Shown here piece by piece: positions 15,341 through 43,265 of a stretch of DNA of 64,000 nucleotides (positions within the stretch are counted from its first letter, which is position 1; every line of letters begins with the position of its first letter). Source of the stretch: Ignavibacteriales bacterium. GTDB lineage: Bacteria; Bacteroidota; Ignavibacteria; Ignavibacteriales; Melioribacteraceae. Where the stretch lies: assembly GCA_016177735.1 (NCBI GenBank), contig JACOUS010000023.1, positions 62,001-126,000 of the forward strand, read 5' to 3'. The notes under the pieces were generated by a model, which did not search any database, had not been told where the DNA came from, and saw only the letters and a list, made by a program, of their open reading frames with translations. Position numbers and translations under genes: made by a program.

Positions 15341-16363
15341 ATGAGAAAGGGAATAAATCATTATATAGTTATAAAATTGGTTTTAATTTTTTCTTTGCTG
15401 GCTCACGATACAGCAGAAAGCCAAAACGGTAATAAAGAAAAATTAGATGTTACATTTTTTGTTGCCGCCGATTTGCATTTTGATCCTCCGCCGGAAACAG
15501 ATCAGTATTATCATGTAGCCGCTATGAATTCGATTAGCGGAATTTTCGATACCAACAAAGTATTAACATTTCTGGAAGAAATCGGGGGAAGCAAAACTGG
15601 TTTTGGAAGCTGCGGGCAAAAAATAAATATTCCTAAAGGTGTTGTACTGGTTGGCGATATAACGGATCGAGCCGAACCTTCGTCATTAAAACTTCTCAAA
15701 GAGAGATATGAAATAGGAATGGGTATTAACCAGATCCACTTTCAGGTTTATGTAGGATTAGGAAACCACGATCTCGATCCCCAGCATGTTGAACCTCGCC
15801 AAGAGGAATACCGAAAACAAATGCTGAACTACGTTACCGCCCGGCATCAAGGTAATAATGCGCCGGTAAGTGTTGATAATTTTGACAGCACATCTCACAA
15901 CTATTCATGGAATTGGGGTAATCTGCATTTGGTGCAAACTCATAGATTTGCCGGTAACATAGAAAACGGACATGTTAACAGTCTTGAATGGTTAAAAGCT
16001 GATTTGAAAAAATATGCTTCGAACGGAGAGCCGGTTATTATTTTTCAACATTACGGGTTTGATAAATTCTCACTTGGTTGGTGGAGCGATGCCGAACGAA
16101 ACGCACTAAAAGAAGTTTTGAAAGATTACAATGTGGTTGGAATTTTTACCGGGCACAATCACTTTGCAGAAAATTTGAAGTGGGGAGAAATTCCGGTTTT
16201 TCAAGTTAACAATGCATGGAAAGATGAAGACGGAAACGGTTCGTTCGCTGTTTGTCATGTAACCGATGAATATATTGATATTGTTACATGCAGATGGAAA
16301 GACGGTGAGGGGAATGCAGAATTTGTATTCCCTTTTTATACAAAAAAGTTTAATCAAAAATAA
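15341..16363 (+). CDS. Secreted calcineurin-like metallophosphoesterase
   Basis: A 340-residue exported metallophosphatase. After a signal peptide (hydrophobic VIKLVLIFSLLA) come the metal-binding blocks of the calcineurin-like fold: AADLHFD, VLVGDITDR, VGLGNHDLD, IIFQHYG and IFTGHNHF. The family hydrolyses phosphomonoesters or diesters with a two-metal centre. I chose the ATG at 15341. An ATG at 15290 is in frame but lies inside the predicted operator, and the signal peptide fits the later start better. The GH92 mannosidase follows 15 bases downstream, so the two are co-transcribed. The substrate cannot be read from the sequence; a phosphorylated glycan is suggested by the neighbours. Confidence 0.85.
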   Translation: MRKGINHYIVIKLVLIFSLLAHDTAESQNGNKEKLDVTFFVAADLHFDPPPETDQYYHVAAMNSISGIFDTNKVLTFLEEIGGSKTGFGSCGQKINIPKGVVLVGDITDRAEPSSLKLLKERYEIGMGINQIHFQVYVGLGNHDLDPQHVEPRQEEYRKQMLNYVTARHQGNNAPVSVDNFDSTSHNYSWNWGNLHLVQTHRFAGNIENGHVNSLEWLKADLKKYASNGEPVIIFQHYGFDKFSLGWWSDAERNALKEVLKDYNVVGIFTGHNHFAENLKWGEIPVFQVNNAWKDEDGNGSFAVCHVTDEYIDIVTCRWKDGEGNAEFVFPFYTKKFNQK

Positions 16364-16378
16364 TTTCGGGAAAATATC

Positions 16379-19321
16379 ATGAAAAAAAATTGCTTCGGAA
16401 TTTACATTTTACTTTTGGCTGGATGTTTCAATCTTTATGCACAAAATGTAACTAAGTATGTTAATCCTTTCATAGGTACCGGCGGACACGGACACACATT
16501 TCCCGGTGCATCTGTTCCTTTTGGAATGGTGCAATTAAGTCCCGATACTGATATTGAAGGATGGGACTGGTGTTCGGGTTATCACACTTCGGATAATTCG
16601 ATAATGGGTTTTAGTCATACACATCTCAGCGGAACGGGTGGTGCAGATTACGGCGATGTTTTATTGATGCCAACTATCGGCGAGTTAAAAATTATTCCCG
16701 GAAGTAAAACGAACCCAGATGAAGGTTACCGCTCACGGTTCACTCATAAAAATGAAAAAGCAGAAGCGGGTTACTACAGTGTAATTCTGGATGATTACAA
16801 AATCAAAGCAGAACTTACCGCAACAACACGAGCCGGATTTCATAAATACACTTTCCCGGAATCAAAAAATTCTAACATCATCATTGATTTAAAACACGGA
16901 ATATCCGACCGGACAGTTGAATCATATATAGATTTTGTGAGTACTACACAAGTAGAAGGATATCGAAGATCAAAAGGATGGGCAAATGATCAAATTCTCT
17001 ACTTCGTTATAAAGTTTTCGAAACCGTTCGAATCATTCGGCACTGCTATAGATGAGAAAATTTCTGCAAGTGTGAAAGATGCAAAAGGTGAAAACGTAAA
17101 AGGATATGTTCGATATAAAACAAGCGAAGGCGAACAAGTGTTGGTGAAAGTAGGAATTTCAGCAGTAAGTATTGAAGGAGCGAGAAAAAATCTTGATGCT
17201 GAAATTGCCAATTGGAATTTTGACAAAACACGTAACGAAGCAGAACAAATGTGGGAAAAAGAACTTGGCAAAATAAAAGTTGAAGGCGGCACTACAGAAC
17301 AAAAAACTGTTTTCTACACCGCACTGTTTCATACAATGATTCATCCGAATATTTTTATGGATGTTGACGGACAATTCAGAGATATGGATAACAAAATTTA
17401 TCAAGCAAAAAATTTCAATTACTACACTGTTTATTCTTTGTGGGATACATACCGCGCATTGCATCCGCTTTTCACTTTGATAGAACCGGAACGTGATGTT
17501 GATATGATAAAAACATTGCTTGCGAAATATGAAACGGGCGGATTGCTTCCCGTGTGGGAATTATCTTCGAACGAAACCGGTACAATGATCGGCTACCATT
17601 CTATTCCGGTAATTGTAGATGCATTCATGAAAGGCTTAAGAAATTTTGATGTTGAAAAAGCATTCACAGCGATGAAGAGAAGTGCGGATATGAATCATCT
17701 CGGATTAAAAACATACAAAGAACTTAATTACGTTGCATCGGACAGCGAGCACGAGTCAGTATCAAAAACTTTGGAATATTCTTACGATGACTGGTGCATA
17801 GCAATGATGGCAAAAGAACTCGGCAAAGAAGATGATTACGAACGATTCTACAAAAGAGCGATGAACTATAAAAATTTGTTTGACGGGTACAACGGATTTA
17901 TGCGCGGAAAAAAATCCGACGGCACATGGGTCCCGCTTTTTAATCCGTATGCTGTAACCCGCGATTTTACGGAAGCAAATTCGTGGCAGTATTCTCTTTA
18001 TGTTCCGCATGATGTTAACGGTTTGAAAAGTCTTTACGGCGGCGGCGATAAACTTGCAAAAAAACTTGATGAAACTTTTGAAGCCGATTCCAAACTTGAA
18101 GGAAAACAACAATCGGATATTTCCGGATTGATCGGGCAATACGCGCACGGCAATGAGCCGAGTCATCATATGGCATACCTCTACAACTTTACGCCGGAAC
18201 CGTGGAAAACCCAAAAGTGGGTGCACAATATTATGGATAATATGTACACAGCTTTGCCCGACGGCTTAAGCGGCAACGAAGACTGCGGACAAATGTCGGC
18301 GTGGCTGGTATTAAGTGCGATGGGCTTCTATCAAGTGTGCCCGGGCACAGACGAGTATGTTATCGGAACGCCTCTCTTCGAAAAGGTAACAATTGATAAC
18401 GGTAATGGAAAGAAATTTGTAGTTGAAGCACACGGCGTTTCATCGAAAAATATTTATATCCAATCGGTTAAGTTGAACGATGTATCGTACAACAAAAATT
18501 TTATCAAGTATGATAATATTATGAACGGTGCAAAGATTATTTTTGAAATGGGCGACGAGCCGAATAAAAATTGGGGAACCGGAAAAGAAAATCAGCCGTA
18601 TTCTTTTTCACAAATTGATTTTGTTTCTACTCCGTATCAAAAAAGTGATATAACTTATTTTGAAAATTCTGCCGTTGTTGATTTAACAACACGAACAGTT
18701 GGCGCTGAAATTCGCTATACGCTGGATGGAAGCGAGCCGGATGGACATTCAAAATTATTTTCCGGACCGTTTCAGTTAACAGAATCTGCAATAATCAAAG
18801 CAAAGGCGTTTAAGGGGGGAATGGATCCAAGTCCTCTTTCGTTAATCGAAGCGAACAAGCTTATTTATTTCGAACCGGAAAGTCTTCAGAAGCCGGTCAA
18901 CGGAATTAATTATGAATATTACGAAGGAACATTTTCAAGTGTGTTCGATTTTGCATCGAGTAAAGCATTGAAATCAGGAAGTCTGAAAAATTTTGATTTA
19001 AGTCCGGCAGAAAAAGAAGATCATTACGGATTTAAATTTACCGGTTATGTAAAAATTCCTAAAAAAGGTTTTTATCAATTTTATACTTTGTCCGATGACG
19101 GCTCGGTATTATTTATTGATGACAAACAAATTGTTGGTAACGACGGCTCGCACGGAGCCTTGGAAGCATCCGGTCTGATTGCGCTTAAAGAAGGTTTCCA
19201 CCGTTTGACATTATTATACTTCGAAGATTATGAAGGGAACAGTATCGAAGTTAAATTTGAAGGTCCGGAAATTGAAAAACAAGCAATCCCGGATTCAATG
19301 TTATTTTGCGAAGGTGAGTAA
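16379..19321 (+). CDS. GH92 family alpha-mannosidase with C-terminal PA14 domain
   Basis: A 980-residue exported enzyme. The N-terminus is hydrophobic and has a possible lipobox (LLAGC, residues 13-17), so it may be a lipoprotein, although LYAQN also looks like an ordinary cleavage site. The catalytic part (about 25-745) has GH92 hallmarks: NPFIGTGGHGHTFPGA, SDSEHESVSKTLEYSYDDW (about 460) and GNEDCGQMSAWLVLSAMG (about 635). GH92 enzymes are calcium-dependent exo-acting alpha-mannosidases. A chitobiase-C-like domain (SEPDG, about 785) and a PA14 domain (FYTLSDDGSVLFIDD, about 905) follow. The same two-domain tail ends the phosphatase at 21091. The preceding gene is a phosphoesterase, which fits removal of phosphate and mannose from one glycan. 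Confidence 0.93.
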   Translation: MKKNCFGIYILLLAGCFNLYAQNVTKYVNPFIGTGGHGHTFPGASVPFGMVQLSPDTDIEGWDWCSGYHTSDNSIMGFSHTHLSGTGGADYGDVLLMPTIGELKIIPGSKTNPDEGYRSRFTHKNEKAEAGYYSVILDDYKIKAELTATTRAGFHKYTFPESKNSNIIIDLKHGISDRTVESYIDFVSTTQVEGYRRSKGWANDQILYFVIKFSKPFESFGTAIDEKISASVKDAKGENVKGYVRYKTSEGEQVLVKVGISAVSIEGARKNLDAEIANWNFDKTRNEAEQMWEKELGKIKVEGGTTEQKTVFYTALFHTMIHPNIFMDVDGQFRDMDNKIYQAKNFNYYTVYSLWDTYRALHPLFTLIEPERDVDMIKTLLAKYETGGLLPVWELSSNETGTMIGYHSIPVIVDAFMKGLRNFDVEKAFTAMKRSADMNHLGLKTYKELNYVASDSEHESVSKTLEYSYDDWCIAMMAKELGKEDDYERFYKRAMNYKNLFDGYNGFMRGKKSDGTWVPLFNPYAVTRDFTEANSWQYSLYVPHDVNGLKSLYGGGDKLAKKLDETFEADSKLEGKQQSDISGLIGQYAHGNEPSHHMAYLYNFTPEPWKTQKWVHNIMDNMYTALPDGLSGNEDCGQMSAWLVLSAMGFYQVCPGTDEYVIGTPLFEKVTIDNGNGKKFVVEAHGVSSKNIYIQSVKLNDVSYNKNFIKYDNIMNGAKIIFEMGDEPNKNWGTGKENQPYSFSQIDFVSTPYQKSDITYFENSAVVDLTTRTVGAEIRYTLDGSEPDGHSKLFSGPFQLTESAIIKAKAFKGGMDPSPLSLIEANKLIYFEPESLQKPVNGINYEYYEGTFSSVFDFASSKALKSGSLKNFDLSPAEKEDHYGFKFTGYVKIPKKGFYQFYTLSDDGSVLFIDDKQIVGNDGSHGALEASGLIALKEGFHRLTLLYFEDYEGNSIEVKFEGPEIEKQAIPDSMLFCEGE

Positions 19322-19489: not shown

Positions 19490-20995
19490 ATGAACAAATC
19501 AATCGTTAATTTTGCGGTATTAATTTTTTTTATCATTCCTTCTTTAATCCATAGCCAGCACGATGACCATATCGGTTACAAGTGTGATGTTTTTTGGTCG
19601 GCAGGTAATAAACACGCACACTTACTTTATAACAGAGCAATTTCAAGTCAGTCGCACATAACATGGGGGACGGGCAATCACACATCTTCTCCGGTTCCGC
19701 TCGGTGCAGTTGGACCGGGAAAATATGTTAATCAACTGAAAGGAATTATCGATAACACAGAGATCGGGAAAGTAACACAGCAAGCAATACGCGACGGTGT
19801 GAACGTAATTTTGATGATCGGCGACGGAATGGGATTCAATCACATGAGTCTGCCAATCTATATGAGAATTGCTGAACAGAGCAGTGAAAAAACATACTTC
19901 GAAAAAATTATGGATGAAGGTGCTTCGGGAGTTGTGCTAACAAATACAATTAATGGAATTGTTACTTGTTCAGCGACCGCCGCCTCATCAATGGCGGCTG
20001 GCTACAAAAACATGATGGAAATTATAAGCGTTGATACAAACGGCTACCCGGTTGAAACATCTTTGGAACTTGCGGAAAAACTTGGTTATGTAACCGGACT
20101 CGTAACCGATGCCGGAATTACTGACGGAACGCCGGCGGCATTTTACGCGCATACATATAATAGAAATCTCGAAAATGAAATCGCAGAACAATTGATCGGT
20201 CACAATGTTGAAGTAATCTTTGGAGGCGGAGCCGCGAAGTTCATTCCAAAAGGAACCCGGCTGAAAGATTTTGCTTACTATAAAAACTCGCCATTCATAA
20301 ATGAAATGTCTTCCGAAAGAGAAGATGAAAAGAATTTGTTGACGGGTTTCGAAAATGAAGGATATAAAATAATTTCCGACAAGAATGATTTGATTAATCT
20401 TAATAGTAACACAGAAAAAGTTTTCGGATTGTTTAACGGCGGCGGTGTCTCTGCCACAATCGATAGAGACACAGAAAAAACGGATGAACCTTCATTGATT
20501 GATATGACAACAAAAGCGCTTGAACTTCTTGACCGCAAAGACAAAAACTTTTTTGTTATGATCGAAGCCGGCAGAATTGACTGGGAAGCACACGATAACG
20601 ATGCCGGTGCTGTTTACAAAGCTGTTGAAGAAATGAACGGTATGCTCGGCGTTTGCTACGATTTTCAGAAATCACATCCGAATACTTTATTGATTTTTAC
20701 TGCCGATCACGAAACCGGCGGACTCGGAATTGCATACACAAAAGCTTCCCCGGAAAACATTTTCAAAAAGAAACTGCAAAGCGGAGATATCTGGCACAGC
20801 GACACCGACCCTTTGTTTTTCCAACAATTCAAGAAATTGAAAAGCCAGAAAAGATCGCTCTACAAAATTTTCGGCGAAGCCAAATCAGACGAGCAGTTAT
20901 TTGAGATGTTGAACAATAATTCCGATTACAAAATTACACACGAAGACGCACAGATTATTTTTGATGTGATTCACGGATACAAAAAAGCAAAATAG
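19490..20995 (+). CDS. Secreted alkaline phosphatase
   Basis: A 501-residue alkaline phosphatase with a signal peptide (FAVLIFFIIPSLIHSQ). Metal and active-site blocks are ILMIGDGMGFNHM (about 110), VTCSATAASSMAAGY (about 160), TDAGITDGTPAAFYAH (about 205), EAGRIDWEAHDNDAG (about 360) and TADHETGG (about 405). It hydrolyses phosphomonoesters in the periplasm or outside the cell. In the nucleophile loop the residue before the presumed catalytic Ser is Cys, where the E. coli enzyme has Asp (Asp-Ser-Ala); activity may still be normal. About 80 residues before the first metal motif (with SSPVPLGAVGPGKY) are longer than in the E. coli enzyme. A 168-base gap separates it from the mannosidase; it probably belongs to the same group. 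Confidence 0.92.
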   Translation: MNKSIVNFAVLIFFIIPSLIHSQHDDHIGYKCDVFWSAGNKHAHLLYNRAISSQSHITWGTGNHTSSPVPLGAVGPGKYVNQLKGIIDNTEIGKVTQQAIRDGVNVILMIGDGMGFNHMSLPIYMRIAEQSSEKTYFEKIMDEGASGVVLTNTINGIVTCSATAASSMAAGYKNMMEIISVDTNGYPVETSLELAEKLGYVTGLVTDAGITDGTPAAFYAHTYNRNLENEIAEQLIGHNVEVIFGGGAAKFIPKGTRLKDFAYYKNSPFINEMSSEREDEKNLLTGFENEGYKIISDKNDLINLNSNTEKVFGLFNGGGVSATIDRDTEKTDEPSLIDMTTKALELLDRKDKNFFVMIEAGRIDWEAHDNDAGAVYKAVEEMNGMLGVCYDFQKSHPNTLLIFTADHETGGLGIAYTKASPENIFKKKLQSGDIWHSDTDPLFFQQFKKLKSQKRSLYKIFGEAKSDEQLFEMLNNNSDYKITHEDAQIIFDVIHGYKKAK

Positions 20996-21090
20996 AATTT
21001 ATTCGAAATGTTAAGGTCCCTTTGCGTTCTCTGCTTGAACTTTATTTCTCGCCAGGGAACAATCGCTTCATTTTATGGAGATTACTCACA

Positions 21091-22962
21091 ATGAAAAATT
21101 TTTTTATTGTTCTATTCATTTTCTCTACAACTGCCTTCTCTCAAAAAGAAAAATTAAATTTTCTCGTTAAACCTTATGTGCAAAACACATCCGCGACTTC
21201 GATTACAATATTGTGGGAAACAAACCCCGCATCAAAAGGTGAAGTGCAATTCGGCAAAGCAGAGCTTGATAAAAATTCTCCAACGCTTGACCAAAAAATA
21301 ATTCAAGATTCTTTTTCAACGATGCACGTTATCGAATTGAAAAATCTTGAGCCTGGCAAGCAATATTTTTACAAAGCTCTTTCATGTACAGAGAATGGCG
21401 ATACACTTATTTATAATATTCTGCCGATAGCAACATTTCCGTATGTTGAACAGCCGTTTACGTTTGCTGTCTTTAGCGATTCGCAGCAACAGGAAGATAC
21501 ACTCGCGTGGAATAAAATTTCCAACATGGCATTGATGGAAAGGCCAAACTTCGGATTGATCGTAGGCGATCTCGTTGAAAGAGGTGAAGATATCAACATG
21601 TGGCGGAATCAATTCCTTTCCAAAGCACACGAGTTTATGAAAAGCATTCCGCTCTTTCCTGTGATGGGTAATCATGATAACAACGATCCGAATTATTTTA
21701 AATACATGAAATCTCGCAGCGAAAAAAGTTATTACACTTTCACTTATTGTAATGCACAATTTTTTATAATCGACAGCAATCTTGAACTTGAACCGGGCAG
21801 CGAACAATATAATTGGCTCGAAGAAGAACTAGCAAAATCGAAAACTGATTGGAAAATTGCAGCGCATCATCATCCCGCGTATTCATCCGATTACGATGAT
21901 TACGGAAATTCCGAAACATCACTTCGCTTAAAAGGCGATCCGGTAATTCTTCCTCTCATTCCACTTTATGAAAAATATAATGTTGATGTTGTTTTCTCCG
22001 GGCACATTCACAGTTACGAAAGAACATGGCAAATCGCAAATGATAAAGTTGATGACGATGGAGTTGTTTATATACAAACCGGCGGTGCCGGCGGCAACCT
22101 GGAAAAAAGTGCGGTGATGAGATCGTGGTTCACTGCCAAAGTTAAAAGTGCACACAACTTCTGCCTCGTTTCAGTTAACGGCAATCAACTTTATTTCTGT
22201 GCGATTGATTACAGTGGGAATTTGTTTGATCAAATCAAATTGAAAAAGGAAGCTGATAAATTATTAACATTATCTACGCCGGTTATTCGCGCACATAACA
22301 ACAAATTCATTGATGAAATAAATGTAACTATTGAAGATTATAATAAAAACGCAGAGGCAAGATTTACATTCGACGGCGGTGAACCCTCGATCAATTCCCA
22401 ATTATACAAAGGACAAATAAGAATTAATGAATCATGCATACTAAAAGTTTCTTCTTTTGTAGGCAATCTAAAAAGCAAAACGAGCAAAATGTTTTTTGAA
22501 AAAATTGAAGGACAGAATGGATACGCTGTTAATCCTACAAACAACGGATTGAATTACAAATATTATGAAGGAACAAATTGGCTGAATCTGCCGGACTTTG
22601 AAAAGACAAAAGAAATCAAAAGCGGAGCCGTTGGCAATATTTCTATTACTGAAATCAAAGAGCGTGAGGATCAATTCGCAATAACCTACGGCGGATTTAT
22701 TCGTGTTGACGACAACGATGTTTATACTTTTTATGTTCGTTCCGATGACGGCACAAAGTTATACATCGATGATCAACTTGTTGTGGATAACAACGGCTCT
22801 CACAGCGCAAGAACAAAATACGGCAGTATAGCTTTGCTTGCTGGCTATCATAAATTTTATCTCGAATATTTTGACAACGTTGAAGGAGAGGAATTAAAAG
22901 TAATGTTCAAATCGAGCAAGTACGAAAGAAGGGAAATAAAAAACAACGAGTTGTTTCGTTAA
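21091..22962 (+). CDS. Purple-acid-phosphatase-like metallophosphoesterase with PA14 domain
   Basis: A 623-residue exported phosphatase. I use the ATG at 21091 because a signal peptide (FFIVLFIFSTTAFSQ) starts there and GGAG lies 11 bases upstream; an earlier TTG at 21022 would bury it. An N-terminal fibronectin-like domain (about 25-120, TSITILWETNP, LEPGKQYFYKA) is followed by the metal-binding blocks FSDSQ, IVGDLVERGED, VMGNHDNND, AAHHHPAYSSD and FSGHIHSYERT (about 125-390). This arrangement is typical of purple acid phosphatases. The tail is a chitobiase-C-like domain and a PA14 domain (FYVRSDDGTKLYIDDQL), the same architecture as in the GH92 protein. It is the last gene before the convergent Nudix regulator. 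Confidence 0.9.
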   Translation: MKNFFIVLFIFSTTAFSQKEKLNFLVKPYVQNTSATSITILWETNPASKGEVQFGKAELDKNSPTLDQKIIQDSFSTMHVIELKNLEPGKQYFYKALSCTENGDTLIYNILPIATFPYVEQPFTFAVFSDSQQQEDTLAWNKISNMALMERPNFGLIVGDLVERGEDINMWRNQFLSKAHEFMKSIPLFPVMGNHDNNDPNYFKYMKSRSEKSYYTFTYCNAQFFIIDSNLELEPGSEQYNWLEEELAKSKTDWKIAAHHHPAYSSDYDDYGNSETSLRLKGDPVILPLIPLYEKYNVDVVFSGHIHSYERTWQIANDKVDDDGVVYIQTGGAGGNLEKSAVMRSWFTAKVKSAHNFCLVSVNGNQLYFCAIDYSGNLFDQIKLKKEADKLLTLSTPVIRAHNNKFIDEINVTIEDYNKNAEARFTFDGGEPSINSQLYKGQIRINESCILKVSSFVGNLKSKTSKMFFEKIEGQNGYAVNPTNNGLNYKYYEGTNWLNLPDFEKTKEIKSGAVGNISITEIKEREDQFAITYGGFIRVDDNDVYTFYVRSDDGTKLYIDDQLVVDNNGSHSARTKYGSIALLAGYHKFYLEYFDNVEGEELKVMFKSSKYERREIKNNELFR

Positions 22963-23021: not shown

Positions 23022-23708
23022 TCATATTTCAAAGTTGTAGCCCTTCTCTTTCAGGCTGTCGTATTTACGTTTATCGAATCTATATAATTTTGCAGCGCGG
23101 TGCGGGACACCTTTTTGTTTTTCTAGCGGAACAAGAACATTCATCCCAAGAATTTTTTTGCGGAAATTTCTTTTGTCCATGTCAAAATCCATAATGGTTT
23201 CGTAGAGATTTTGTAACTGTGAGAGAGTAAATTTTAGAGGCAGCAATTCAAAACCAATCGGACGAATTCTAACACGCTGTTTCAATCTTTTCAGTGCATA
23301 ATTAATAATTTCATTATGATCGAACGGAAGCTTGGGAAGTTTTTTGATAGAAAACCACTGTGCATCGCTTACTTTGGGACCGGGTTCAGGTTTGTAATCT
23401 TCAATTTTCACGAGAGCAAAATAAGCAACGGTTACAACCCTAAACAAAGGGAAACGATAAACATCACCAAAAGTATAAAGTTGTTCCATGTAAACATTAT
23501 CAAGACCTGTTAATTCTTTCAGCACTCTTTTTGCGGCAATATCAAGATTCTCCTCTTGCAAAATATTGCTTCCGGGCAGCGCCCATTCGCCTTTGCCCGG
23601 TTCTACCGCAAGTTTTATCACGAGCACTTTCAACTCGGAATTGTCAAATCCGAATATGACGCAGTCGGTTGATAAATTTTTGATAATCTGGTTTGAATTT
23701 TTTGCCAA
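23022..23708 (-). CDS. Nudix-type transcriptional regulator (NrtR/AraR-like)
   Basis: A 228-residue protein with an N-terminal Nudix domain (about 8-140) and a C-terminal winged-helix region (about 150-225; LKFTLSQLQNLYETIM, ending HRAAKLYRFDKRKY). That is the layout of NrtR-family regulators, which include the Bacteroides arabinose regulator AraR. The Nudix box is degenerate: where hydrolases have REUxEExGU this has RVLKELTGL, so two of the three glutamates are gone. It probably senses a sugar-type or nucleotide ligand rather than hydrolysing one. It lies alone on the minus strand. Two copies of the shared palindrome lie 70 and 110 bases upstream, and further copies precede the other two glycan operons. 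I infer that it controls this whole region. The ligand is unknown. Confidence 0.88.
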   Translation of the reverse strand: MAKNSNQIIKNLSTDCVIFGFDNSELKVLVIKLAVEPGKGEWALPGSNILQEENLDIAAKRVLKELTGLDNVYMEQLYTFGDVYRFPLFRVVTVAYFALVKIEDYKPEPGPKVSDAQWFSIKKLPKLPFDHNEIINYALKRLKQRVRIRPIGFELLPLKFTLSQLQNLYETIMDFDMDKRNFRKKILGMNVLVPLEKQKGVPHRAAKLYRFDKRKYDSLKEKGYNFEI

Positions 23709-23778: not shown

Positions 23779-23800
23779 TTATTGTGTTTTTGACACTAAG
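23779..23800 (+). promoter_or_regulatory. Predicted Nudix-regulator operator, site 2
   Basis: TTATTGT-GTTTTTG-ACACTAAG in the divergent space between the Nudix regulator and the GNAT-GH89 operon. The half sites TTATTGTG and GACACTAA form an interrupted palindrome (6 of 8 positions pair). The next copy starts exactly 40 bases downstream. Confidence 0.6.
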
Positions 23801-23818: not shown

Positions 23819-23840
23819 ATATTGTAAAAAATACACTAAG
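23819..23840 (+). promoter_or_regulatory. Predicted Nudix-regulator operator, site 3
   Basis: ATATTGT-AAAAAAT-ACACTAAG, in the same orientation as site 2 and 40 bases from it. It ends 54 bases before the acetyltransferase start. Confidence 0.6.
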
Positions 23841-28184: not shown

Positions 28185-28185
28185 G

Positions 28186-29124: not shown

Positions 29125-29153
29125 ACAAAATGAAAATACAAAAAGGTAAACTG

Positions 29154-36000: not shown

Positions 36001-36568
36001 GCTTGCCGGTTATTCCGTTCAATCCGGTTCAAAAATTTATTGGGCGGGCACAGTATTCGGAATTGATTTCAGCACAGCATTCACGGAAAGCAAAATGCCG
36101 GCATCGGGCAATATTTATCAAGTTGATTTCAAGCGTCCGTTTGTTGCGTCGGATTATTTTGAATTCACCATTAACCCGCAAGTTGATCTCAGTGCAGAAA
36201 AATTAAAAGGCGATATGAACAGCATTAAAGTTGTTCCGAATCCGTATGTAGTAACAAACTCGCTTGAAGGCGCGGTTGCAAATTATCAATTGAATCAAAG
36301 AAGACAATTGATGTTCACAAACATTCCGGCGCAGTGTGTAATTAAAATATTCACTGTCAGCGGCGTTCTTGTAGATGAAATTGTAGTTGATAACGCTGCT
36401 GCTTCGCGTACAAAAGAATGGGACCTGAATTCAACTGCAAACGGCACTGCATTTTGGGATCTTAAAACACGGGAAGGTTTGGATATTGCTTCCGGTTATT
36501 ACATCTATCAAGTAAAATCGTCTTTAACCGGCGAAGAAAAAATAGGAAAGTTTGCAGTTGTTAAATAA
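33047..36568 (+). CDS. Large secreted surface protein with calcium-loop motifs and T9SS-like tail
   Basis: A 1173-residue exported protein (signal peptide VLLLLTAVNISLYAQ). I do not recognise the N-terminal 560 residues; they are rich in Trp, Gly and aromatic beta-type sequence. Acidic calcium-binding-like loops appear at about 337 (DNDNDGIVDEK), 398 (DANGNGVYDKDENAGDD) and 975 (DKNQNGSFDYDTDE). Residues about 568-1040 are clearly homologous to residues about 289-745 of the endonuclease-family protein at 40680. The C-terminus (VVPNPYVV, then SGYYIYQVKSS..GKFAVVK) resembles a T9SS sorting domain. GGAG precedes the ATG. It sits directly after the TonB receptor and PorV-like genes, where SusD-type binding proteins stand in other Bacteroidota; a ligand-capture role is inference. 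Confidence 0.75.
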   Translation: MKNFVRVLLLLTAVNISLYAQGRMYDGPDDPAGDKAAERVGYMTGNRVLIQFRNTTELSDCCGLGYEVSKWPNNYEGTKMTDGIATLIGARVFLQNDTIPVTSGYQGRTDLDTLYYIQSSYREHMDKDATLTVEYGLYPVFGYFNELSETPAVSSSPESWPTDGWPSNNGKKWLGEWNGRFGRGVVKSDLECFFVTNDAQDQEYLESGNRVRYYPRPGIQIGYKDPNVTIQKGKPWGGIGVRIETRGFQWSNPSANDAIFWEDNISNISNYDLPEMVFGFWMDNAVGGEEGVGDDLAFYTTDLNMAYTWDVDYVPVGGGKAPGLLGFAFLESPGLPFDGVDNDNDGIVDEKRDNSAAAKVGATSGITDVDKFLSYYKLTSADLKEHWDADEDQDWEDGIDANGNGVYDKDENAGDDVGLDGVGPGDINYTGPDADGTECNHKPDFAEGIGSEPNFASTDINESDMLGLTSFHYTTDIDRLAIIRTDESLFKYMAEGTFNDFQDQPLNFMEFFASGIFPLYRGRTERVSFAELHSYDPLSGLMGDSHAAPALFRLKEVVQVIYETDYRFAQAPLMPTLKATPANGKIILTWDDVSDKLTRDEFVNNKNDFEGYKLYRATDKKMSDAEQITDGYGNPTLKKPIFQCDKIDNITGFADFGAVNGVQYYLGDDSGIQHYFVDEDVENGRTYYYVLVAYDYGLPDVGDGISPSENSFVIRLDEAEEVVEISKNVAIVKPHQFAAGYVEPSITMNEDVERLGYGALSTKIIVPDEIKAQHTYRVYFDVDTVTYLRLTEQLRSSADMLYVNNGFKVYDVTDNNKLVYSENTTDFSGENIEGDKYQSTGGTKYEYKRLNDKLVISGMFDGIQLSIENPINLAEQNSQTTGWIDGTSPMNVDVSESEGIFFPWKYNIVFTSDNNAYTSKTTSTSRIKDADNNTLGPSQILLNQNFNFYVVNKSLTNENGEPEKLDLIVYDKNQNGSFDYDTDEVLAGYSVQSGSKIYWAGTVFGIDFSTAFTESKMPASGNIYQVDFKRPFVASDYFEFTINPQVDLSAEKLKGDMNSIKVVPNPYVVTNSLEGAVANYQLNQRRQLMFTNIPAQCVIKIFTVSGVLVDEIVVDNAAASRTKEWDLNSTANGTAFWDLKTREGLDIASGYYIYQVKSSLTGEEKIGKFAVVK

Positions 36569-36654: not shown

Positions 36655-38175
36655 ATGGAAAAAAACTATCAACATATCGGGAAATTTTTCTTACTCAACT
36701 TTGTACTAATTTCTTTTCTGCTGGCGGCAAACACAAATGCGCAAGAAGAAAAAATTTTAGCGCGGGTGGGAGATAAAACAATTTCGCTGGATGAGTTTAT
36801 TAGAAGAGCGGAATACACAGTGCGTCCGGCTTATTGTAAAAACAATTTCAATATCGATAAAAAGATAATTCTAAATTCATTGATCGCCGAAAAATTGCTT
36901 GCGATTGAAGCCGGCGGGAATAATACGTTCATCAGCAAAGCGGAAGTGCAGGCATATCTGCAAGGAAGAAAAGAACAGTTGATGCGGCTCTATCTTTATA
37001 ATGATGAAGTACGAAGCAAAATAAAACTCGATACAAATAAAATTAATACTGCATTTAAGTATGCCGGACGCGAATACCAAATTTCTTACGTCAGTCTGCA
37101 AGATTCTTTGATTGCAAAACAGCTCGAAGAAGAAATAATCGAAAAGAAAATTCCTTTCGAAAAAACGCTTCATGAAAATTACAATCTGCAAGAGATACCC
37201 GAAAAGAAAGTTGAGTGGAGTAAACTTGAACATCCGCTCGTGCTCGACAGTCTTTTTTCAAAGGACCATAAAAAAGGCGACGTTATTGGTCCATTGAAGA
37301 TCGAAGATAATCATTACATGTTTATAAAAATAAATAGCTGGAAAAACACACCGGCTATAACTGCAAAACAAATAGAGAACAGATACAATTCTGTTCACAA
37401 CACGTACGAAGAGAGTGAAGCTTTCAGAGGATATGTTGAATATGTAAAGGAAATAATGAATGGCAAAAGTTTGGACTTCAATAAGGAAGTCTTTTTTGAA
37501 CTTGCAGATATTTTTGGTCCGGAATACATGAACAGCAGAAAAACTCAAGAAGAAGCTTTTGAAGAAGGTGTTTGGGATTATAAAAAAGAAGAAATGGAAT
37601 TCCGGAATACTAAACCGCGTCTCGATGAAATCAGAAATGAAAAATTGTTCACGTTCGATAATCATGATTGGACAGTAGAAGAATTTCTTCGTGAAATAAA
37701 AAAGCACCCTCTCGTTTTCAGAGAGAAAAAATTTCCGCAGAATAAATTTGGAGATCAGTTGCAATTAGCAATATTAGATATGATCAGAGATGAATGCCTG
37801 ACTAAAGAAGCTTATGCCAAAGGCTATGATGACGTGCCCGGGGTTGTGCGTGATAATCAAATGTGGAAAGATAATCTCAACTCACTTTATGAAAAGTATA
37901 GAATACTAAAAGAAGCCGGTAAAGATTCTTTGTTTGCTTCCAACTATCAGGAAGTTATTAAAAGTACATTGAACCCATACGTTGATTCTCTTCAGTACAA
38001 ATATTCCGATAAGATTTTTATAAACACGGATTTATTTAACAATATCAAACTTACCAAAATCGATCTGTCTGTGACGTATGCAAATTCTCCTTTTTCTCAG
38101 GTTGTTCCGAATTTTCCGCTGGTAACAACCGATAACAAACTTGACTACGGCAGTGCAGTAAAAAGTGTTCCTTAA
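36655..38175 (+). CDS. Peptidyl-prolyl cis-trans isomerase, parvulin/SurA-like
   Basis: A 506-residue exported protein with signal peptide (FLLNFVLISFLLAANTNAQ). The SurA-type N-terminal helical region starts at ARVGDKTISLDEFIRRAEY (about 38), and a parvulin-type segment lies at about 145-230 (YQISYVSLQDS, then GDVIGPLKIEDNHYMFIKIN). The C-terminal tail ends in a hydrophobic, proline-rich stretch similar to that of the partial isomerase at the start of the window. It probably helps fold or escort outer-membrane barrels. It is the last gene after the receptor, PorV-like and surface-protein genes, 86 bases downstream, which suggests a dedicated chaperone. There is no strong ribosome-binding site before the ATG. 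Confidence 0.8.
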   Translation: MEKNYQHIGKFFLLNFVLISFLLAANTNAQEEKILARVGDKTISLDEFIRRAEYTVRPAYCKNNFNIDKKIILNSLIAEKLLAIEAGGNNTFISKAEVQAYLQGRKEQLMRLYLYNDEVRSKIKLDTNKINTAFKYAGREYQISYVSLQDSLIAKQLEEEIIEKKIPFEKTLHENYNLQEIPEKKVEWSKLEHPLVLDSLFSKDHKKGDVIGPLKIEDNHYMFIKINSWKNTPAITAKQIENRYNSVHNTYEESEAFRGYVEYVKEIMNGKSLDFNKEVFFELADIFGPEYMNSRKTQEEAFEEGVWDYKKEEMEFRNTKPRLDEIRNEKLFTFDNHDWTVEEFLREIKKHPLVFREKKFPQNKFGDQLQLAILDMIRDECLTKEAYAKGYDDVPGVVRDNQMWKDNLNSLYEKYRILKEAGKDSLFASNYQEVIKSTLNPYVDSLQYKYSDKIFINTDLFNNIKLTKIDLSVTYANSPFSQVVPNFPLVTTDNKLDYGSAVKSVP

Positions 38176-38210: not shown

Positions 38211-38232
38211 TTATTGTGTATTGTACACTATG
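38211..38232 (+). promoter_or_regulatory. Predicted Nudix-regulator operator, site 4
   Basis: TTATTGT-GTATTGT-ACACTATG, 22 bp, upstream of the beta-helix protein gene. It matches sites 1-3, and a further copy begins 32 bases downstream. Confidence 0.55.
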
Positions 38233-38242
38233 TATTTATATT

Positions 38243-38264
38243 ATATTGTAAAAATCACACTAAG
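38243..38264 (+). promoter_or_regulatory. Predicted Nudix-regulator operator, site 5
   Basis: ATATTGT-AAAAATC-ACACTAAG, ending 66 bases before the ATG of the beta-helix protein. It has the same orientation as the other four sites. Confidence 0.55.
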
Positions 38265-38330: not shown

Positions 38331-40514
38331 ATGAAAAAAATCACCCTACAATTTGTAGCACTGATTTGTTTGCCGTTGATAGTGAGCGCGCAGACTTTTA
38401 TCGATCCAAATCTTAACGTGGAAGCAAAAGTTTTTGCCTATCAATTGGCTTCGGCTCCAACCATAGACGGTTCGGGCACCGAATGGAATAATATTCCATG
38501 GCAAAAATTGTACTTCTTAGATAAGGATTATAATAATGACGGTCTCGCAGACCCGATACCCGGCAGAAATGATTATGAAGCTGAATTTAAAGCTGCTTGG
38601 GTCAATGGAAGCAATATTCTTTATTTGTTGATTAATATAAAAGATGACCGGTTTCATAATCCCGATAGCGTGAACTGGTATAATAAAGACGGAATGGAAA
38701 TCCGTATCGATCCTTTTGATGCAGAAGATGCCGGAGAACCATCAAGCACCGGTACAGCTTTCAATCTCGGTTTTACTATTGGAAATAACAATGCTTCCGG
38801 ACTTGAAGGACCATCAACAAATTACACAGCAGCATGGACAGTTAAAGAAAACTCATTCCCAAAAGAAGCAACTTTAGAAACCGGCATCGTATTGCCTTCA
38901 ACAGTTCTTCTTCAAAAGAATTATGTAATGGGCTTTATGCTCTACTGCAGTGATAATGATAACGAACAAGACGGCTCACCTAAAGATAAAGATGCCGTAC
39001 TTGCGCCGTGGCCTCAGCGTTATTACGGTGCAACAAAATCCAAAATCGGAATTGACGGCACATGGGAAAATATTTATTACTGGGGCAACATCGAATGTAT
39101 CGCATTAAATATTCATGAAGTACCATCGGGCGGTTCAATTCAATCAGCAATTACTTCTGCTGAAGAAGGCGATATTATTAAAATTGCTGCCGGCACATTC
39201 ACTGAAAATATTACAATCGATAAACCGTATTTGCAGTTAATCGGAACAATTACATCATCAGATACAACCAAGTTGATGCCCGCAGATGCAAACCAGCCGG
39301 TTATTAAAGTTGCCGATGATGACGCAGCTTACGGAACAGTTGTAAGTAACATCGGTTTTAACGGATGGAGTGTTGGTCAGGATGGTTCTGTAGTTATCGG
39401 CAATAAAGGTGTTGAAATTGGTTCTGCATTAACACAAGTAACCGGCAGTTACTTTACCGGTTTTGAACGCCCGATAATTAAGAGCGGCGTTGACAGTTCG
39501 AAAGCACATGCCGGCGTGTTTGAAGACAATCATCTTTATAAATGCAAAGGCGGAATCAACTTCAATACTCCTAACACAATCATGAGATATAACACTGTTG
39601 AAGAAGCTTCGGGCGGTTACGGATTGGAATCGAAAGGCGTGCTTGCCGGAAGTGCCATTGATATTAGTTACAATACTGTATTTAATCATCATGGAGAATG
39701 TGCAGTTGGTTACGGCGGAGCCGGTGTATTTACAGTTCACAATAATTTCTTTGTAAGAAGCGAACAGTTGTACGGATCGGGTGATACAACCGGTGACGAC
39801 GGAATCGAAAATCAAGATGACGGCGGTTCGACAGATTATATTTACAATAACACAATCGTTGGCTGGAAGAGCGATGGAATGCAGCTGGGCGGTTCATCGA
39901 GAGGAACAAGCAATTATCATATTGCAAATAATTTAATAGCTAACTGCGCCGGTAAAGATTTCGATATCAGAAAAACCGGTTCGTATGAAATTGATTACAG
40001 CTTATCATACAAAAACAAAGGTGGAAACCTTGCAACTACACTCGGTACACATTCTGTGGAAGTAGATCCGCAATTCACAAATGAATTCGAAGATGATTTT
40101 ACAATAACCACATCATCACCCGCTGTTGATGCCGGTTTAACAGAACCTTTCGGATTTAAGTTGATGTACTATGGTAATAATGTAGATATCGGTGCATTCG
40201 AAACCGGAAGCCCGGTTGTTTCTGTTGAGGAATTAAAAACAGAGCTGCCGGCAAACTATACACTCGAACAAAATTATCCCAATCCGTTCAATCCGGTAAC
40301 AACAATAAATTTCAGCATACCGGCAAATGAAAAAGTGACAATGAAAGTTTATAACGTGCTTGGACAATTAGTATCTACATTAGCGGACGGTGAATATAAT
40401 GCCGGTACATACAAAGTAACATTTGATGCATCGAGATTATCGAGCGGAATTTATTTCTACACATTGCAAACGAATAGTTTTTCAGTTACCAAGAAAATGA
40501 TTCTGATGAAATAA
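38331..40514 (+). CDS. Secreted beta-helix protein with sugar-binding-like N-domain and T9SS tail
   Basis: A 727-residue exported protein with a signal peptide (LQFVALICLPLIVSAQ) and AGGAGG before the ATG. Residues about 30-250 resemble a CBM9-like carbohydrate-binding domain (APTIDGSGTEWNNIPWQ, WVNGSNILYLLINIKDDRF). Residues about 260-620 form a right-handed parallel beta helix of the pectate-lyase/NosD type (GGSIQSAITSAEEGDIIKIA, repeating NNT/NNF turns). The T9SS type A sorting domain starts at LEQNYPNPFNPVTT (about 643). A glycan-binding or lyase role is possible; no catalytic residues can be assigned. Two predicted operators sit directly upstream. Confidence 0.8.
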   Translation: MKKITLQFVALICLPLIVSAQTFIDPNLNVEAKVFAYQLASAPTIDGSGTEWNNIPWQKLYFLDKDYNNDGLADPIPGRNDYEAEFKAAWVNGSNILYLLINIKDDRFHNPDSVNWYNKDGMEIRIDPFDAEDAGEPSSTGTAFNLGFTIGNNNASGLEGPSTNYTAAWTVKENSFPKEATLETGIVLPSTVLLQKNYVMGFMLYCSDNDNEQDGSPKDKDAVLAPWPQRYYGATKSKIGIDGTWENIYYWGNIECIALNIHEVPSGGSIQSAITSAEEGDIIKIAAGTFTENITIDKPYLQLIGTITSSDTTKLMPADANQPVIKVADDDAAYGTVVSNIGFNGWSVGQDGSVVIGNKGVEIGSALTQVTGSYFTGFERPIIKSGVDSSKAHAGVFEDNHLYKCKGGINFNTPNTIMRYNTVEEASGGYGLESKGVLAGSAIDISYNTVFNHHGECAVGYGGAGVFTVHNNFFVRSEQLYGSGDTTGDDGIENQDDGGSTDYIYNNTIVGWKSDGMQLGGSSRGTSNYHIANNLIANCAGKDFDIRKTGSYEIDYSLSYKNKGGNLATTLGTHSVEVDPQFTNEFEDDFTITTSSPAVDAGLTEPFGFKLMYYGNNVDIGAFETGSPVVSVEELKTELPANYTLEQNYPNPFNPVTTINFSIPANEKVTMKVYNVLGQLVSTLADGEYNAGTYKVTFDASRLSSGIYFYTLQTNSFSVTKKMILMK

Positions 40515-40555: not shown

Positions 40556-40679
40556 TATTGAAAGCACAGTTGATCAATGATGTTAGAAAAATTTTCTGCA
40601 AGTAATCTATGGTGCCTCTCTGTTTGGGGGATATGTATCGCGCATGTCTCCCGAATATTTTTAAATAACGAAAATAACC

Positions 40680-43265
40680 ATGAGTAAACTATCTAATATT
40701 TTCAGTACACTCTTCTTAATTCTTTTTGTCGCCTCATCATTATCTGCTCAGGAAAAAGATATTACAATTAATGTAATGACTTACAATATCCAGCAAGGCA
40801 CTCATTACAATCCGCAGTCAACACCGAAAGCAGTTTCCGAAATTGTTTTGAAAAACAAAATTGATTTGCTTGGTTCGCAAGAGTTGCACATTGACGGCGT
40901 TAAAAGTTTGAGCGCACTGCTGTCCGGTTACGGCTGGTTCGGGGTCGGAAGAGAAAACGGGAAAGAACTCGGCGAAACCGGCGTAATCTTTTATAATAAA
41001 GAAATGTTCGAACTTCTCGAACAATCGACATTTTGGTTATCCGAAACTCCGAATGTTATCGGAAGCAAAAGCTGGAATTCTGCCGATATCAGAATTGTAA
41101 CGTGGGGAAAATTTCTTCTGCTCTCCGATTCAAGCATCGTTTATTTATTCAACACACATTTTGATCACATCAGCAGTTTGGCGCGGCAAGAAAGCTCCAA
41201 ACTTCTTCTAAAAAAAATTGATGAGATTGCCGGAAAGAATCCCGTTATTGTTACCGGCGATTTTAATATGACGAGCGCCGATCAAGAATACAAAATTCTT
41301 GTTGACTACTACTATTATTATCTGCAAATGTACGATACGAAATATAAATCTATAAACGGCAGCACCGGTCCAGCCGGCACATTCAATGATTTTCTTTACG
41401 ACAATCCATCAACTAAAATAGATTTCATCTTTGCAAACCCTTTCTTCGATGTTCTTACGAACGAAGTAATTCCCGATAAGTATGAAGGAAATTTTATCTC
41501 GGATCATTTCCCGGTGAAAGTGCAAGTGAAGTTGAAACATCCTTTGCCGCCGGTTACGCCGGTATTAAAAGCAGTTGCCGGTAATAACAAAGTTTCTCTC
41601 TATTGGGATGATGTTTCGGAAAAAGAAACCATCGAAACATTCGCCGATTCAACAAAGGATTTTCAGGGATACAAATTATATAAATCAAAAACTCCCGATA
41701 TGAAAGATGCGCTTCTCGTAGAAGGCAAATGGAACGTTCCGCTGTTGAGGAAGCCGTTGTTCGAGTGCGATTTAATTGATGATAAATATGGTTACACAAA
41801 TTATGGAATTGTTGGCGGCTTTGGTTATTATCTCGGCAGCAACAGCGGCTTGCAGCATTATTATGTTGATGAAGATGTCCGCAACGAAGAAACATATTAT
41901 TACGTGTTGATCGCATTCGATCACGGGATTCCAAATATGGCAGATGGTTTTCCGCCGATGGAAACACCTTTTGTTCTCGAAGTTGATGCGAGCGGAAATA
42001 TTATTTCGAAATCATCGAATGTTGATTCTGCAAAACCGGAAGCGCCTCAGCAAGGTTCGGATGATAAGTCTATAATTTTTGAGAATGATAACATTAAAGG
42101 GACCGGAAATTATAGTGTGAGAATAATTGATCCGTCAAGACTTGTAAACGGCAGATACAAAATTAAATTTGATGTTGATACGCTAAACTATAATGCAGTT
42201 CCCAACCCGAAGTACCGTAGTAACAGAGATTTGTATTTGATCAATTCTGGAATAAATATTGTCTCGCTGGAAAATGATTCTGTGATCTACAAAGAAAATT
42301 CTGCAAGCTATTCCGCGCGCAACATAGATTTCAATCCCTACTTGAATTACTATTTCCTCAACACGAGTACGCCGGTTGTTACCGAAGAGACAAACGGCTT
42401 CCAAATTATTTTAAGCAACCTTGTTGAAAAAGCTGTGTATGATTCCGTCAAATCCGGCTGGAAGATTGGAAATGCAAATATTAATGTAACGCCTTCTTCA
42501 AAAGAAGCATTTTATTTCCCGTGGAATTGTGAAATTAGATTTGGTGAACTATATACCGGTCGCACTTCAACTCTGAAATCAATCTACGATACCGACGGAA
42601 GTATTATTGCCTTCACGCAATTACTGCTCAAACAAAATTTTGATTTCAGCGTTGTGAGTAAAGATTTCCCGGACGAAAAACTTGACTTGATTGTTTTTGA
42701 TGCTGATGCGGATGGTGTCTTCAATTATGAAAAAGATAAAGTGCTTGCCGGTTATTGTGTCGAACTTGCAAATAAAGTTTACTGGGCTGGAACGGTTTTT
42801 TCAATCTCGTTCGAAAATGCCAGCGGTAATTTACCGTCGCCGGGCGATCTGTACGAAATATTTTTTAAGCGACCGTTTCTCGATTCGGACGAAATCATAT
42901 TTAAAATAGATACGAATGTTACTTCCGCTGATGCCGCAAATGATAAAGGTTTGAGCACGGATTTTTCACTCAGTCAAAATTATCCGAATCCATTCAACCC
43001 ATCCACAACAATTAGTTACACGTTACAAGTTTCAGGTTATACGACTTTGAAAGTCTATGATATTCTTGGAAGAGAAATTGCAACACTTGTAAATGAATTT
43101 AAGCAAGCCGGGAAGTATAACGTAGAGTTCAGAACGCAGCTTGCCCGCCAAGGCGGGAGTGCAGAATTACCAAGCGGAATCTATTTTTATACTTTACAAA
43201 TTAGCCCTTCGACACTCTCAGCGTCTTCTTTCAGACAAACAAAAAAAATGTTGTTGATTAAATAA
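40680..43265 (+). CDS. Endonuclease/exonuclease/phosphatase-family protein with T9SS tail
   Basis: An 861-residue exported protein (signal peptide LFLILFVASSLSAQ). Residues about 25-285 are an EEP-type metal phosphodiesterase/phosphatase: NVMTYNIQQGTHYN, LLGSQELH, LFNTHFDHIS, VIVTGDFNMTSAD, KIDFIFANP and ISDHFPV. Such enzymes cleave phosphodiesters in nucleic acids, phospholipids or inositol phosphates. A region of about 450 residues (289-745) follows, homologous to the surface protein at 33047, with a calcium-type loop (DADADGVFNYEKDK). The C-terminus is a T9SS domain (LSQNYPNPFNPSTT) that carries an in-frame palindrome at about 820-826. Start context is weak. With three other secreted phosphatases nearby, a phosphorylated glycan or lipid is a plausible substrate. 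Confidence 0.85.
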   Translation: MSKLSNIFSTLFLILFVASSLSAQEKDITINVMTYNIQQGTHYNPQSTPKAVSEIVLKNKIDLLGSQELHIDGVKSLSALLSGYGWFGVGRENGKELGETGVIFYNKEMFELLEQSTFWLSETPNVIGSKSWNSADIRIVTWGKFLLLSDSSIVYLFNTHFDHISSLARQESSKLLLKKIDEIAGKNPVIVTGDFNMTSADQEYKILVDYYYYYLQMYDTKYKSINGSTGPAGTFNDFLYDNPSTKIDFIFANPFFDVLTNEVIPDKYEGNFISDHFPVKVQVKLKHPLPPVTPVLKAVAGNNKVSLYWDDVSEKETIETFADSTKDFQGYKLYKSKTPDMKDALLVEGKWNVPLLRKPLFECDLIDDKYGYTNYGIVGGFGYYLGSNSGLQHYYVDEDVRNEETYYYVLIAFDHGIPNMADGFPPMETPFVLEVDASGNIISKSSNVDSAKPEAPQQGSDDKSIIFENDNIKGTGNYSVRIIDPSRLVNGRYKIKFDVDTLNYNAVPNPKYRSNRDLYLINSGINIVSLENDSVIYKENSASYSARNIDFNPYLNYYFLNTSTPVVTEETNGFQIILSNLVEKAVYDSVKSGWKIGNANINVTPSSKEAFYFPWNCEIRFGELYTGRTSTLKSIYDTDGSIIAFTQLLLKQNFDFSVVSKDFPDEKLDLIVFDADADGVFNYEKDKVLAGYCVELANKVYWAGTVFSISFENASGNLPSPGDLYEIFFKRPFLDSDEIIFKIDTNVTSADAANDKGLSTDFSLSQNYPNPFNPSTTISYTLQVSGYTTLKVYDILGREIATLVNEFKQAGKYNVEFRTQLARQGGSAELPSGIYFYTLQISPSTLSASSFRQTKKMLLIK
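43137..43159 (+). repeat. Palindrome inserted in frame in T9SS tail
   Basis: The stretch contains CCCGCC-AA-GGCGGG (43144-43157). The flanks (GTAGAGTTCAGAACG before, TGCAGAATTACC after) are identical in the GH53 gene at about 57150-57178, which has only 5 bases (CTGAA) in place of these 23. The insertion adds six residues without breaking the frame. Confidence 0.7.

Follow-up and report, generated by a model that had tools for sequence, protein, structure and literature searches.

We analysed a 64,000-nt stretch of DNA from an Ignavibacteriales bacterium (hereafter the window; C27:62001-126000 of a 3.87-Mb genome), in which positions 15341-43265 hold a locus that joins genes for four phosphoesterases, a GH92 alpha-mannosidase and a GH89 alpha-N-acetylglucosaminidase to those for a GNAT N-acetyltransferase, a sodium:solute symporter, a Nudix-winged helix-turn-helix regulator and outer-membrane proteins. 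Copies of a 19-bp operator, TATTGTRN6ACACTA, precede three gene groups. Pfam scans, with cut-offs applied, covered 35 window proteins, and the features are as follows, in order along the locus:

15272..15290: operator copy 1, upstream of the phosphatase/GH92 group, exact pattern match
15341..16363, + strand: calcineurin-like phosphoesterase MPE1, predicted exported (PF00149, 2.8e-12); the open reading frame (ORF) opens at 15290, likely start 15341
16379..19321, + strand: GH92 alpha-mannosidase, predicted exported (PF07971, 8.9e-187; PF17678; PF07691), with C-terminal CHB_HEX_C_1 and PA14 domains
19490..20995, + strand: alkaline phosphatase, predicted exported (PF00245, 1.2e-70)
21022..22962, + strand: purple-acid-like phosphoesterase with PA14 tail, predicted exported (PF00149, 1e-21; PF16656; PF07691); real start probably 21091
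23022..23708, - strand: NrtR/AraR-type Nudix-winged helix-turn-helix regulator (PF21906, 5.2e-25; PF19368; PF00293)
23780..23798: operator copy 2, between the regulator and GNAT genes, exact pattern match
23820..23838: operator copy 3, between the regulator and GNAT genes, exact pattern match
23895..24425, + strand: GNAT N-acetyltransferase, no signal segment (PF13527, 3.6e-11)
24443..26599, + strand: GH89 alpha-N-acetylglucosaminidase, three NAGLU domains (N, barrel, C) over cut-off
26643..28184, + strand: SGLT-type sodium:solute symporter (PF00474, 2.7e-76; TIGR00813 over cut-off)
28615..29124, + strand: conserved 169-aa protein, no Pfam match; orthologues in both relatives G017 and G002
29121..31919, + strand: TonB-dependent outer-membrane receptor (PF00593, PF07715, PF13715)
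31955..33013, + strand: PorV-like outer-membrane protein (PF19572, 27.7 bits, cut-off 27)
33047..36568, + strand: large exported 1173-aa protein, no Pfam match
36655..38175, + strand: SurA-N-like exported protein (PF13623, 2.3e-5, 24.8 bits, below the cut-off of 28.5)
38212..38230: operator copy 4, upstream of the CBM9 gene, exact pattern match
38244..38262: operator copy 5, upstream of the CBM9 gene, exact pattern match
38331..40514, + strand: CBM9-like protein with type IX sorting tail (PF06452, 44.1 bits; PF18962, 51.7 bits)
40680..43265, + strand: EEP-fold phosphoesterase with type IX sorting tail (PF03372, 8.5e-13; TIGR04183, 25.4 bits, cut-off 23)

The first-pass annotation had placed four exported phosphoesterases of different types (calcineurin-like, alkaline phosphatase, purple-acid-like and EEP), a GH92 and an alpha-N-acetylglucosaminidase in one region. 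All are indeed encoded there with matches over the Pfam cut-offs, and export of the phosphoesterases agrees with the hydrophobic, signal-like segment at the start of each, the best 13-residue Kyte-Doolittle mean near the N-terminus (a crude measure) being 2.35-2.89 for these four and the GH92 protein. For comparison we used 79 genomes of the family (Melioribacteraceae), the window's own included (78 others), among which G017 belongs to the same genus and G002 is a second relative bearing the locus. MPE1 has matches in five of the 79 and a clear orthologue only in G002 (about 59-60% identity, with the motifs GDITDR, GNHD and GHNH kept), and no match in G017; a fold search was dropped for this protein, its AlphaFold2 model from two input sequences being too poor (mean pLDDT 51). 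The best solved relatives of the alkaline phosphatase are alkaline phosphatases, and its orthologues are 89% (G017) and 70% (G002) identical. The GDxxY motif was not found in the sequence of the purple-acid-like protein. In the EEP protein the catalytic E, H, D/N and DH residues are aligned and conserved relative to solved relatives, while its sorting tail, over the TIGR04183 cut-off, scores 25.7 bits against a Pfam cut-off of 27; residues 287-775 match the large exported protein of the locus at 39%. Shared tail regions make 79 of 79 genomes match in the EEP family search, and only matches that span the EEP domain region or the greater part of the protein were used: the G017 orthologue is 70% identical over its full length, and in G002 the ends of two contigs each carry a piece (53% and 46%), the two overlapping in part and not established as one gene. 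The GH92 protein has both GH92 domains over cut-off and a glutamate aligned with the catalytic acid Glu531 of BT3965; its nearest solved relatives are 6f91 (BT3965, the best overall) and 6f8z (BT3130).

A shared operator tying these gene groups together had also been claimed, and this was confirmed by the five exact copies before three groups and by sites at the same three places in the two relatives. Genome-wide there are six exact matches, five of them in the locus, where base composition predicts 0.68, and five of six random sites would land in a single 23-kb span with a probability of no more than about 4e-8. With up to two mismatches the window has 12 matches (several of them one site read on both strands), compared to a mean of 2.5 and a maximum of 9 in shuffles. 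Allowing up to one mismatch across the genome gave 11 matches, which the backward-read pattern exceeds with 15, so that the specificity of the operator rests on the exact sites and their conservation. A weight-matrix scan of the three genomes placed sites before the GH92/MPE1 group, between the regulator and GNAT (or IolG) genes, and before the CBM9 gene; window and G017 sites and a single G002 site went into the matrix and score high by construction. Independent of it are four sites in G002 (L027:7709, 24.3; L026:3438, 22.4; L026:3465, 19.3; and the weak L026:19118, 13.5) and one in G017 (L025:9012, 17.0). By position, L024:12896 in G017 and L027:7709 in G002 are homologous to the site before the GH92 group, and L025:9012 in G017 and L026:3438 and 3465 in G002 to those before CBM9; the interval between the regulator and GNAT (in G002, IolG) has two sites in G017 and two in G002, one of them the weak one. 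No sites scoring above 15 were found in L021-L023, L044-L047, L049-L053 or L065-L069. The sixth exact copy (C15:54326) is followed after 44 bases by a gene of the alpha-L-fucosidase family with a PA14 tail (L020:6327-8444, contig C15), whose product is possibly a further enzyme of the system. Three of the six PA14 matches in the window's own genome are in operator-preceded proteins, namely the GH92, the purple-acid-like and the C15 fucosidase-family proteins, whose tails are 34-38% identical to one another (34% for purple-acid-like versus GH92).

The regulator is assigned to the NrtR/AraR family by its Nudix domain and NrtR-type winged helix, with PF00293, PF21906 and PF19368 all over cut-offs, and is presumed to bind the operator. 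It has matches in 17 of the 79 genomes at E<=0.001; the locus orthologues are 91% (G017) and 72% (G002) identical, and all others are at most 57%, except one 33-residue fragment at 64%. In a tree the regulators of the locus stand apart as their own clade (support 0.998) beside paralogues linked to pentose genes, and the regulator looks to have been recruited from a pentose regulator. By eye, the paralogues in eight mapped loci (L035-L039, L041-L043) adjoin xylose/arabinose kinase and isomerase-like genes, and operator-like sites (score above 13) adjoin the paralogue in seven of the eight. For BtAraR, a regulator of the NrtR family, L-arabinose is described as a negative effector (PMC4666351).

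The gene set occurs together in two of the 78 other genomes, G002 and G017, the latter without the calcineurin-like gene. In G002 the order reads EEP, CBM9, SurA-like, large protein, PorV, receptor, 169-aa protein, symporter, GH89, GNAT, IolG (inserted there), regulator, purple-acid-like, alkaline phosphatase, GH92 and MPE1. G017 has the same gene order on two contigs, which break between the genes for the 169-aa protein and the receptor and likely join into one locus. GH89 matches were found in six of the 79 genomes, and the window protein forms a clade with those of G017 (65%) and G002 (57%; tree support 1.0). Co-occurrence in other genomes, proposed by the first-pass annotation as a check, therefore holds in both relatives that bear a GH89 of this clade, contrary to the refuting outcome named there (close relatives in which the genes never occur together), and in none of the other family genomes searched. 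With the conserved operator, the gene order shared by three genomes and the grouping of phosphatases with glycosidases, a conserved, co-regulated phosphoglycan locus is highly probable from the sequences; phosphoglycan utilisation, as had been suggested, is well supported to that extent, and the first-pass interpretation as a whole is supported in part.

The GNAT and GH89 genes are separated by 17 bases, and the solved structure nearest to the adjoining symporter is 2xq2, a sodium/glucose cotransporter. E298 and E418 of GH89 align with the two catalytic glutamates of solved GH89 enzymes and are present in 16 of 17 aligned proteins. The three orthologues of the window clade have no signal-like segment (hydropathy 0.2-1.3; 0.89 for the window protein), compared with 1.7-3.1 in 14 other Bacteroidota GH89 proteins, the lowest of which (L010, 1.68) is uncertain; one clostridial GH89 is equally low (0.33). 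On this basis the window GH89 is probably cytosolic, which fits a partner enzyme that requires acetyl-CoA. The sugar on which GH89 acts is N-acetylated, and the glucosamine carried by GPI (glycosylphosphatidylinositol) cores is free, so that an organism feeding on GPI would need an acetyltransferase. AAC(2') enzymes transfer the acetyl group to the 2'-amine of alpha-glucosamine attached to an aminocyclitol, an acceptor chemically close to glucosaminyl-alpha-inositol. The best NCBIfam models for the GNAT protein are AAC(2') models (AAC(2')-Ie, 5.5e-6), and the top 12 Foldseek rows for its structural model (mean pLDDT 73) are AAC(2')-Ia chains at a TM score of about 0.63, suggesting a weak resemblance to aminoglycoside 2'-N-acetyltransferases; in the Pfam scan it has no match to HGSNAT_cat and matches GNAT families instead. 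A profile of the three GNAT proteins matched 11 of 391 genomes of the class at 1e-8; three above 340 bits are the profile's own sources, and the next scores 72 bits, with no GH89 in the short stretch examined there. We propose from these comparisons that the GNAT is a candidate glucosaminyl-inositol N-acetyltransferase. HGSNAT-like genes stand beside GH89 in four of 21 other GH89 loci (L006, L007, L017 and L034, by phmmer); of three such neighbours scanned with Pfam, that of L006 is over the HGSNAT_cat cut-off, that of L034 over the DUF5009 cut-off, and that of L017 has no match.

Inositol genes lie at the loci of both relatives. In G002 the interval from the operator to GNAT begins with the gene for IolG (inositol 2-dehydrogenase; TIGR04380, 468 bits, cut-off 355), and this genome, with two copies, is the only one of the 79 with IolG over cut-off. 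In G017, genes for IolM (484 bits, cut-off 450), IolN (300, cut-off 245) and IolO (358, cut-off 300) start 182 bases after the EEP gene, followed by genes for an alcohol dehydrogenase, a fucosidase-family protein and an HGSNAT-like membrane protein. A second G002 locus (contig C36; L034, L044, L049) has a signal-bearing GH89 gene directly after one for a DUF5009 membrane protein, with two GH92 genes and inositol genes about 12-21 kb from GH89 (IolG at about 20.5 kb); IolB, IolC, IolD, MMSDH/IolA and IolG are over cut-offs there and IolE, at 213 bits, is below its cut-off of 290. This locus also holds fucosidase-family genes, and its inositol pathway is near-complete and of the Bacillus type. 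If the G017 contigs are one locus, the two relatives therefore have inositol genes in the company of GH89 and GH92 at three places.

We infer the substrate, the order of steps, the GNAT substrate, the symporter cargo, the mode and effector of the regulator and the extent of transcripts from what is read in the sequence, namely the gene families, the operator and its conservation, linkage, the GH89 without a signal-like segment and the relatives' inositol genes. In the proposed pathway, the TonB receptor, the PorV-like protein and the large exported protein would capture the glycan at the outer membrane. Outside the cell MPE1, the alkaline phosphatase, the purple-acid-like protein and the EEP protein would strip phosphate and phosphoester groups, and GH92 would take off alpha-mannose. 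The SGLT-type symporter would then bring glucosaminyl-inositol into the cytosol, where GNAT may acetylate its free amine with acetyl-CoA, and only after this acetylation would the cytosolic GH89 cut GlcNAc-alpha-inositol (GlcNAc, N-acetylglucosamine) into GlcNAc and inositol. The regulator would govern the three gene groups via the operator, presumably as a repressor that a sugar intermediate releases. A GPI-type core is the best single explanation because it joins IolG, IolM/N/O, GNAT, the cytosolic GH89, the symporter and the phosphatases, and we regard it as an even prospect that the locus serves the sugar-regulated utilisation of a glucosaminyl-inositol glycan that carries phosphate and mannose, with the GPI-anchor core or a GPI-like glycolipid as the likeliest candidate. 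The more specific idea of a dedicated bacterial GPI-eating pathway with a cytosolic acetylate-then-cut step (AAC(2')-like GNAT plus signal-less GH89) is held tentatively, as a possibility somewhat short of even.

Several observations weigh against this reading. In the window's own genome, which is 99.99% complete, neither IolG (at E<1e-60) nor IolN was found, and the nearest protein to IolM is a 31% identical dehydrogenase; G017 likewise has no IolG at E<1e-60, and its inositol genes and GH89 are on different contigs. IolN does not track the locus, being over cut-off in one of the three genomes with it and in three of the 76 without; the family search gave matches in 28 of 79 genomes at E<=0.001, mostly weak and creatininase-type, with four over cut-off and no association with the locus. 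Near other GH92/PA14 genes of the window's own genome (L053, L065-L069) there are no iol genes except one for a 34% identical dehydrogenase. The GNAT protein scores 26.3 bits on the AAC(2')-I NCBIfam model, far under the cut-off of 400; a sequence search of the PDB ranks 4my0, a general GNAT, first (E 0.0097) and AAC(2')-Ic, 1m44, fourth (E 0.061), and alignment of its model with VIA-align gave Z of about 13 for AAC(2') and other GNATs alike. A GNAT relative in another genome (G141, E 8.9e-20) has no GH89 within the 3.5-kb stretch examined. The GPI core has a Man-alpha-1,4-GlcN bond (GlcN, glucosamine), the cutting of which needs alpha-1,4 activity. Relative to the alpha-1,4 +1 subsite of BT3965, the GH92 protein keeps Asp578, has tryptophan at Tyr45 and is missing the Pro520/Trp526 loop; relative to 2wvx, whose spacing fits the alpha-1,2-mannosidase BT3990 (2wvy according to the paper), it has Ser-Asp at the His584-Glu585 pair of the +1 subsite, where the loop aligns only loosely. 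The subsite residues therefore do not reveal its linkage. The EEP protein resembles the deposited mannosyl-6-phosphatase 4c1r, and an equal inositol signal would be expected from other inositol glycolipids.

This last point bears on the first of the alternatives, a plant or fungal glycosyl inositol phosphoceramide (GIPC) or an archaeal glucosaminyl archaetidylinositol, for which the intracellular steps would be as in GPI breakdown. Such lipids carry GlcN or GlcNAc near the inositol phosphate, and the inositol linkage and the GNAT/GH89 logic apply to them equally; GPI proper and these glycolipids are not separable at the level of sequence. Plant GIPC, however, has glucuronic acid between GlcN(Ac) and inositol, and no alpha-glucuronidase family was matched in the Pfam scans of the locus; the archaeal forms need not carry mannose; we consider a substrate of this kind fairly unlikely. 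The main alternative outside the inositol-glycan group is phosphomannan, or phosphorylated high-mannose glycans with alpha-GlcNAc caps, on which the EEP enzyme would act as a mannosyl-6-phosphatase while the other phosphatases scavenge phosphate, GH92 trims mannose and GH89 removes GlcNAc. It draws on the match of the EEP protein to 4c1r (3e-39) and on the strong activity on yeast mannan given for BT3130, a near relative of the GH92 protein (PMC5930347). The best EEP match is nevertheless 3g6s (1.6e-46), with 3mpr also among the solved relatives; the endo-mannanase-type families GH76 and GH99, and also GH125, were not matched among the 35 window proteins; and phosphomannan leaves the relatives' IolG and IolM/N/O, the GNAT and the cytosolic GH89 unexplained, making it unlikely.

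It is very improbable that the phosphatases are a phosphate-scavenging cassette standing by chance beside an N-glycan locus. Relatives of the alkaline phosphatase are admittedly common (46 of the 79 family genomes), and G045 has adjoining alkaline phosphatase (45%) and purple-acid-like (22%) genes, and neither GH92 nor GH89 occurs in the 20 kb examined there. Chance proximity is hard to square with a conserved shared operator, with an order conserved in three genomes and gaps of 15, 168 and 26 bases in the four-gene phosphatase/GH92 group of the window, or with a regulator from a family known for sugar control; a single loose Pho-box-like scan of the window also gave no match. Among the three substrates suggested in the first-pass annotation, the GPI-like glycan and the phosphorylated glycolipid (here an inositol glycolipid) are thus favoured by the inositol genes at both relatives' loci, and phosphomannan less so. 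Heparan sulfate was considered separately and rejected: no polysaccharide lyase was matched in the locus, and the sole sulfatase match is a side match of the alkaline phosphatase.

Eukaryotes widely carry GPI anchors and related inositol glycolipids, and among the papers listed by our searches of the open-licence PubMed Central literature none dealt with a bacterial pathway using them. The locus supplies enzymes that can be tested bond by bond, possible tools for cutting the GPI core, and the prediction that the window GH89 requires prior N-acetylation of its substrate. If this reading is true, AAC(2')-like acetyltransferases may have an ordinary metabolic role outside resistance.

Around these genes, two small membrane-protein-like ORFs were seen by eye at 28185-28614, between the symporter and the 169-aa protein. 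The region 43845-63020 is a second carbohydrate locus without an exact operator, with a ROK kinase, an MFS transporter, a LacI regulator, an SSF symporter, galactokinase, GalT, GH2, GH53, a weak GH5-like protein and a SASA esterase; it looks like a locus for galactan use. A chemotaxis/two-component cluster occupies 1896-15054 (two methyl-accepting chemotaxis proteins with HAMP_2, CheW, histidine kinases and a LytTR regulator). Upstream on the window's contig are a receptor/large-protein/PorV triplet 7-14 kb before the window start (L021:5908-13221) and, at 31-40 kb, GH92 with a mannoside-phosphorylase-like protein below model cut-offs (L023:7402-15641).

Compared with known systems, the proposed acetylation of alpha-glucosamine before GH89 removal resembles lysosomal heparan sulfate breakdown, where HGSNAT N-acetylates terminal alpha-glucosamine and NAGLU, a GH89 enzyme, then removes the sugar; by contrast, the locus has a soluble GNAT and no match to a polysaccharide lyase or separate sulfatase, and the aglycone would be inositol. 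The Bacteroides GH92 loci for mannan and N-glycans share GH92, a mannosyl-6-phosphatase relative, a TonB receptor and co-regulation, whereas the locus described here adds three further phosphoesterases, a signal-less GH89 by a GNAT, an SGLT-type symporter and, in relatives, inositol genes. No SusD match was obtained with Pfam among the 35 window proteins, so that the TonB receptor stands without the partner of a SusC/SusD pair; despite this, the locus would work like a SusC/SusD polysaccharide utilisation locus. The GNAT protein is like AAC(2')-I in its best NCBIfam models and top Foldseek rows, and unlike it in scoring far under the family cut-off, in the sequence ranking against the PDB and in adjoining GH89, its 17-base distance from that gene pointing to catabolism. 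Inositol catabolism of the Thermotoga type (IolG/M/N/O) is represented by IolM/N/O in G017 and IolG in the G002 locus, and that of the Bacillus type by the near-complete set of the second G002 locus, although here the genes are linked to GH92, GH89 and phosphatases, and searches with the models used did not turn them up in the genome of the window. Finally, the regulator shares with BtAraR and XylR of the NrtR family the Nudix and winged-helix architecture and a near-palindromic operator (PMC4666351), and differs in forming its own clade and in sitting with phosphoglycan rather than pentose genes.

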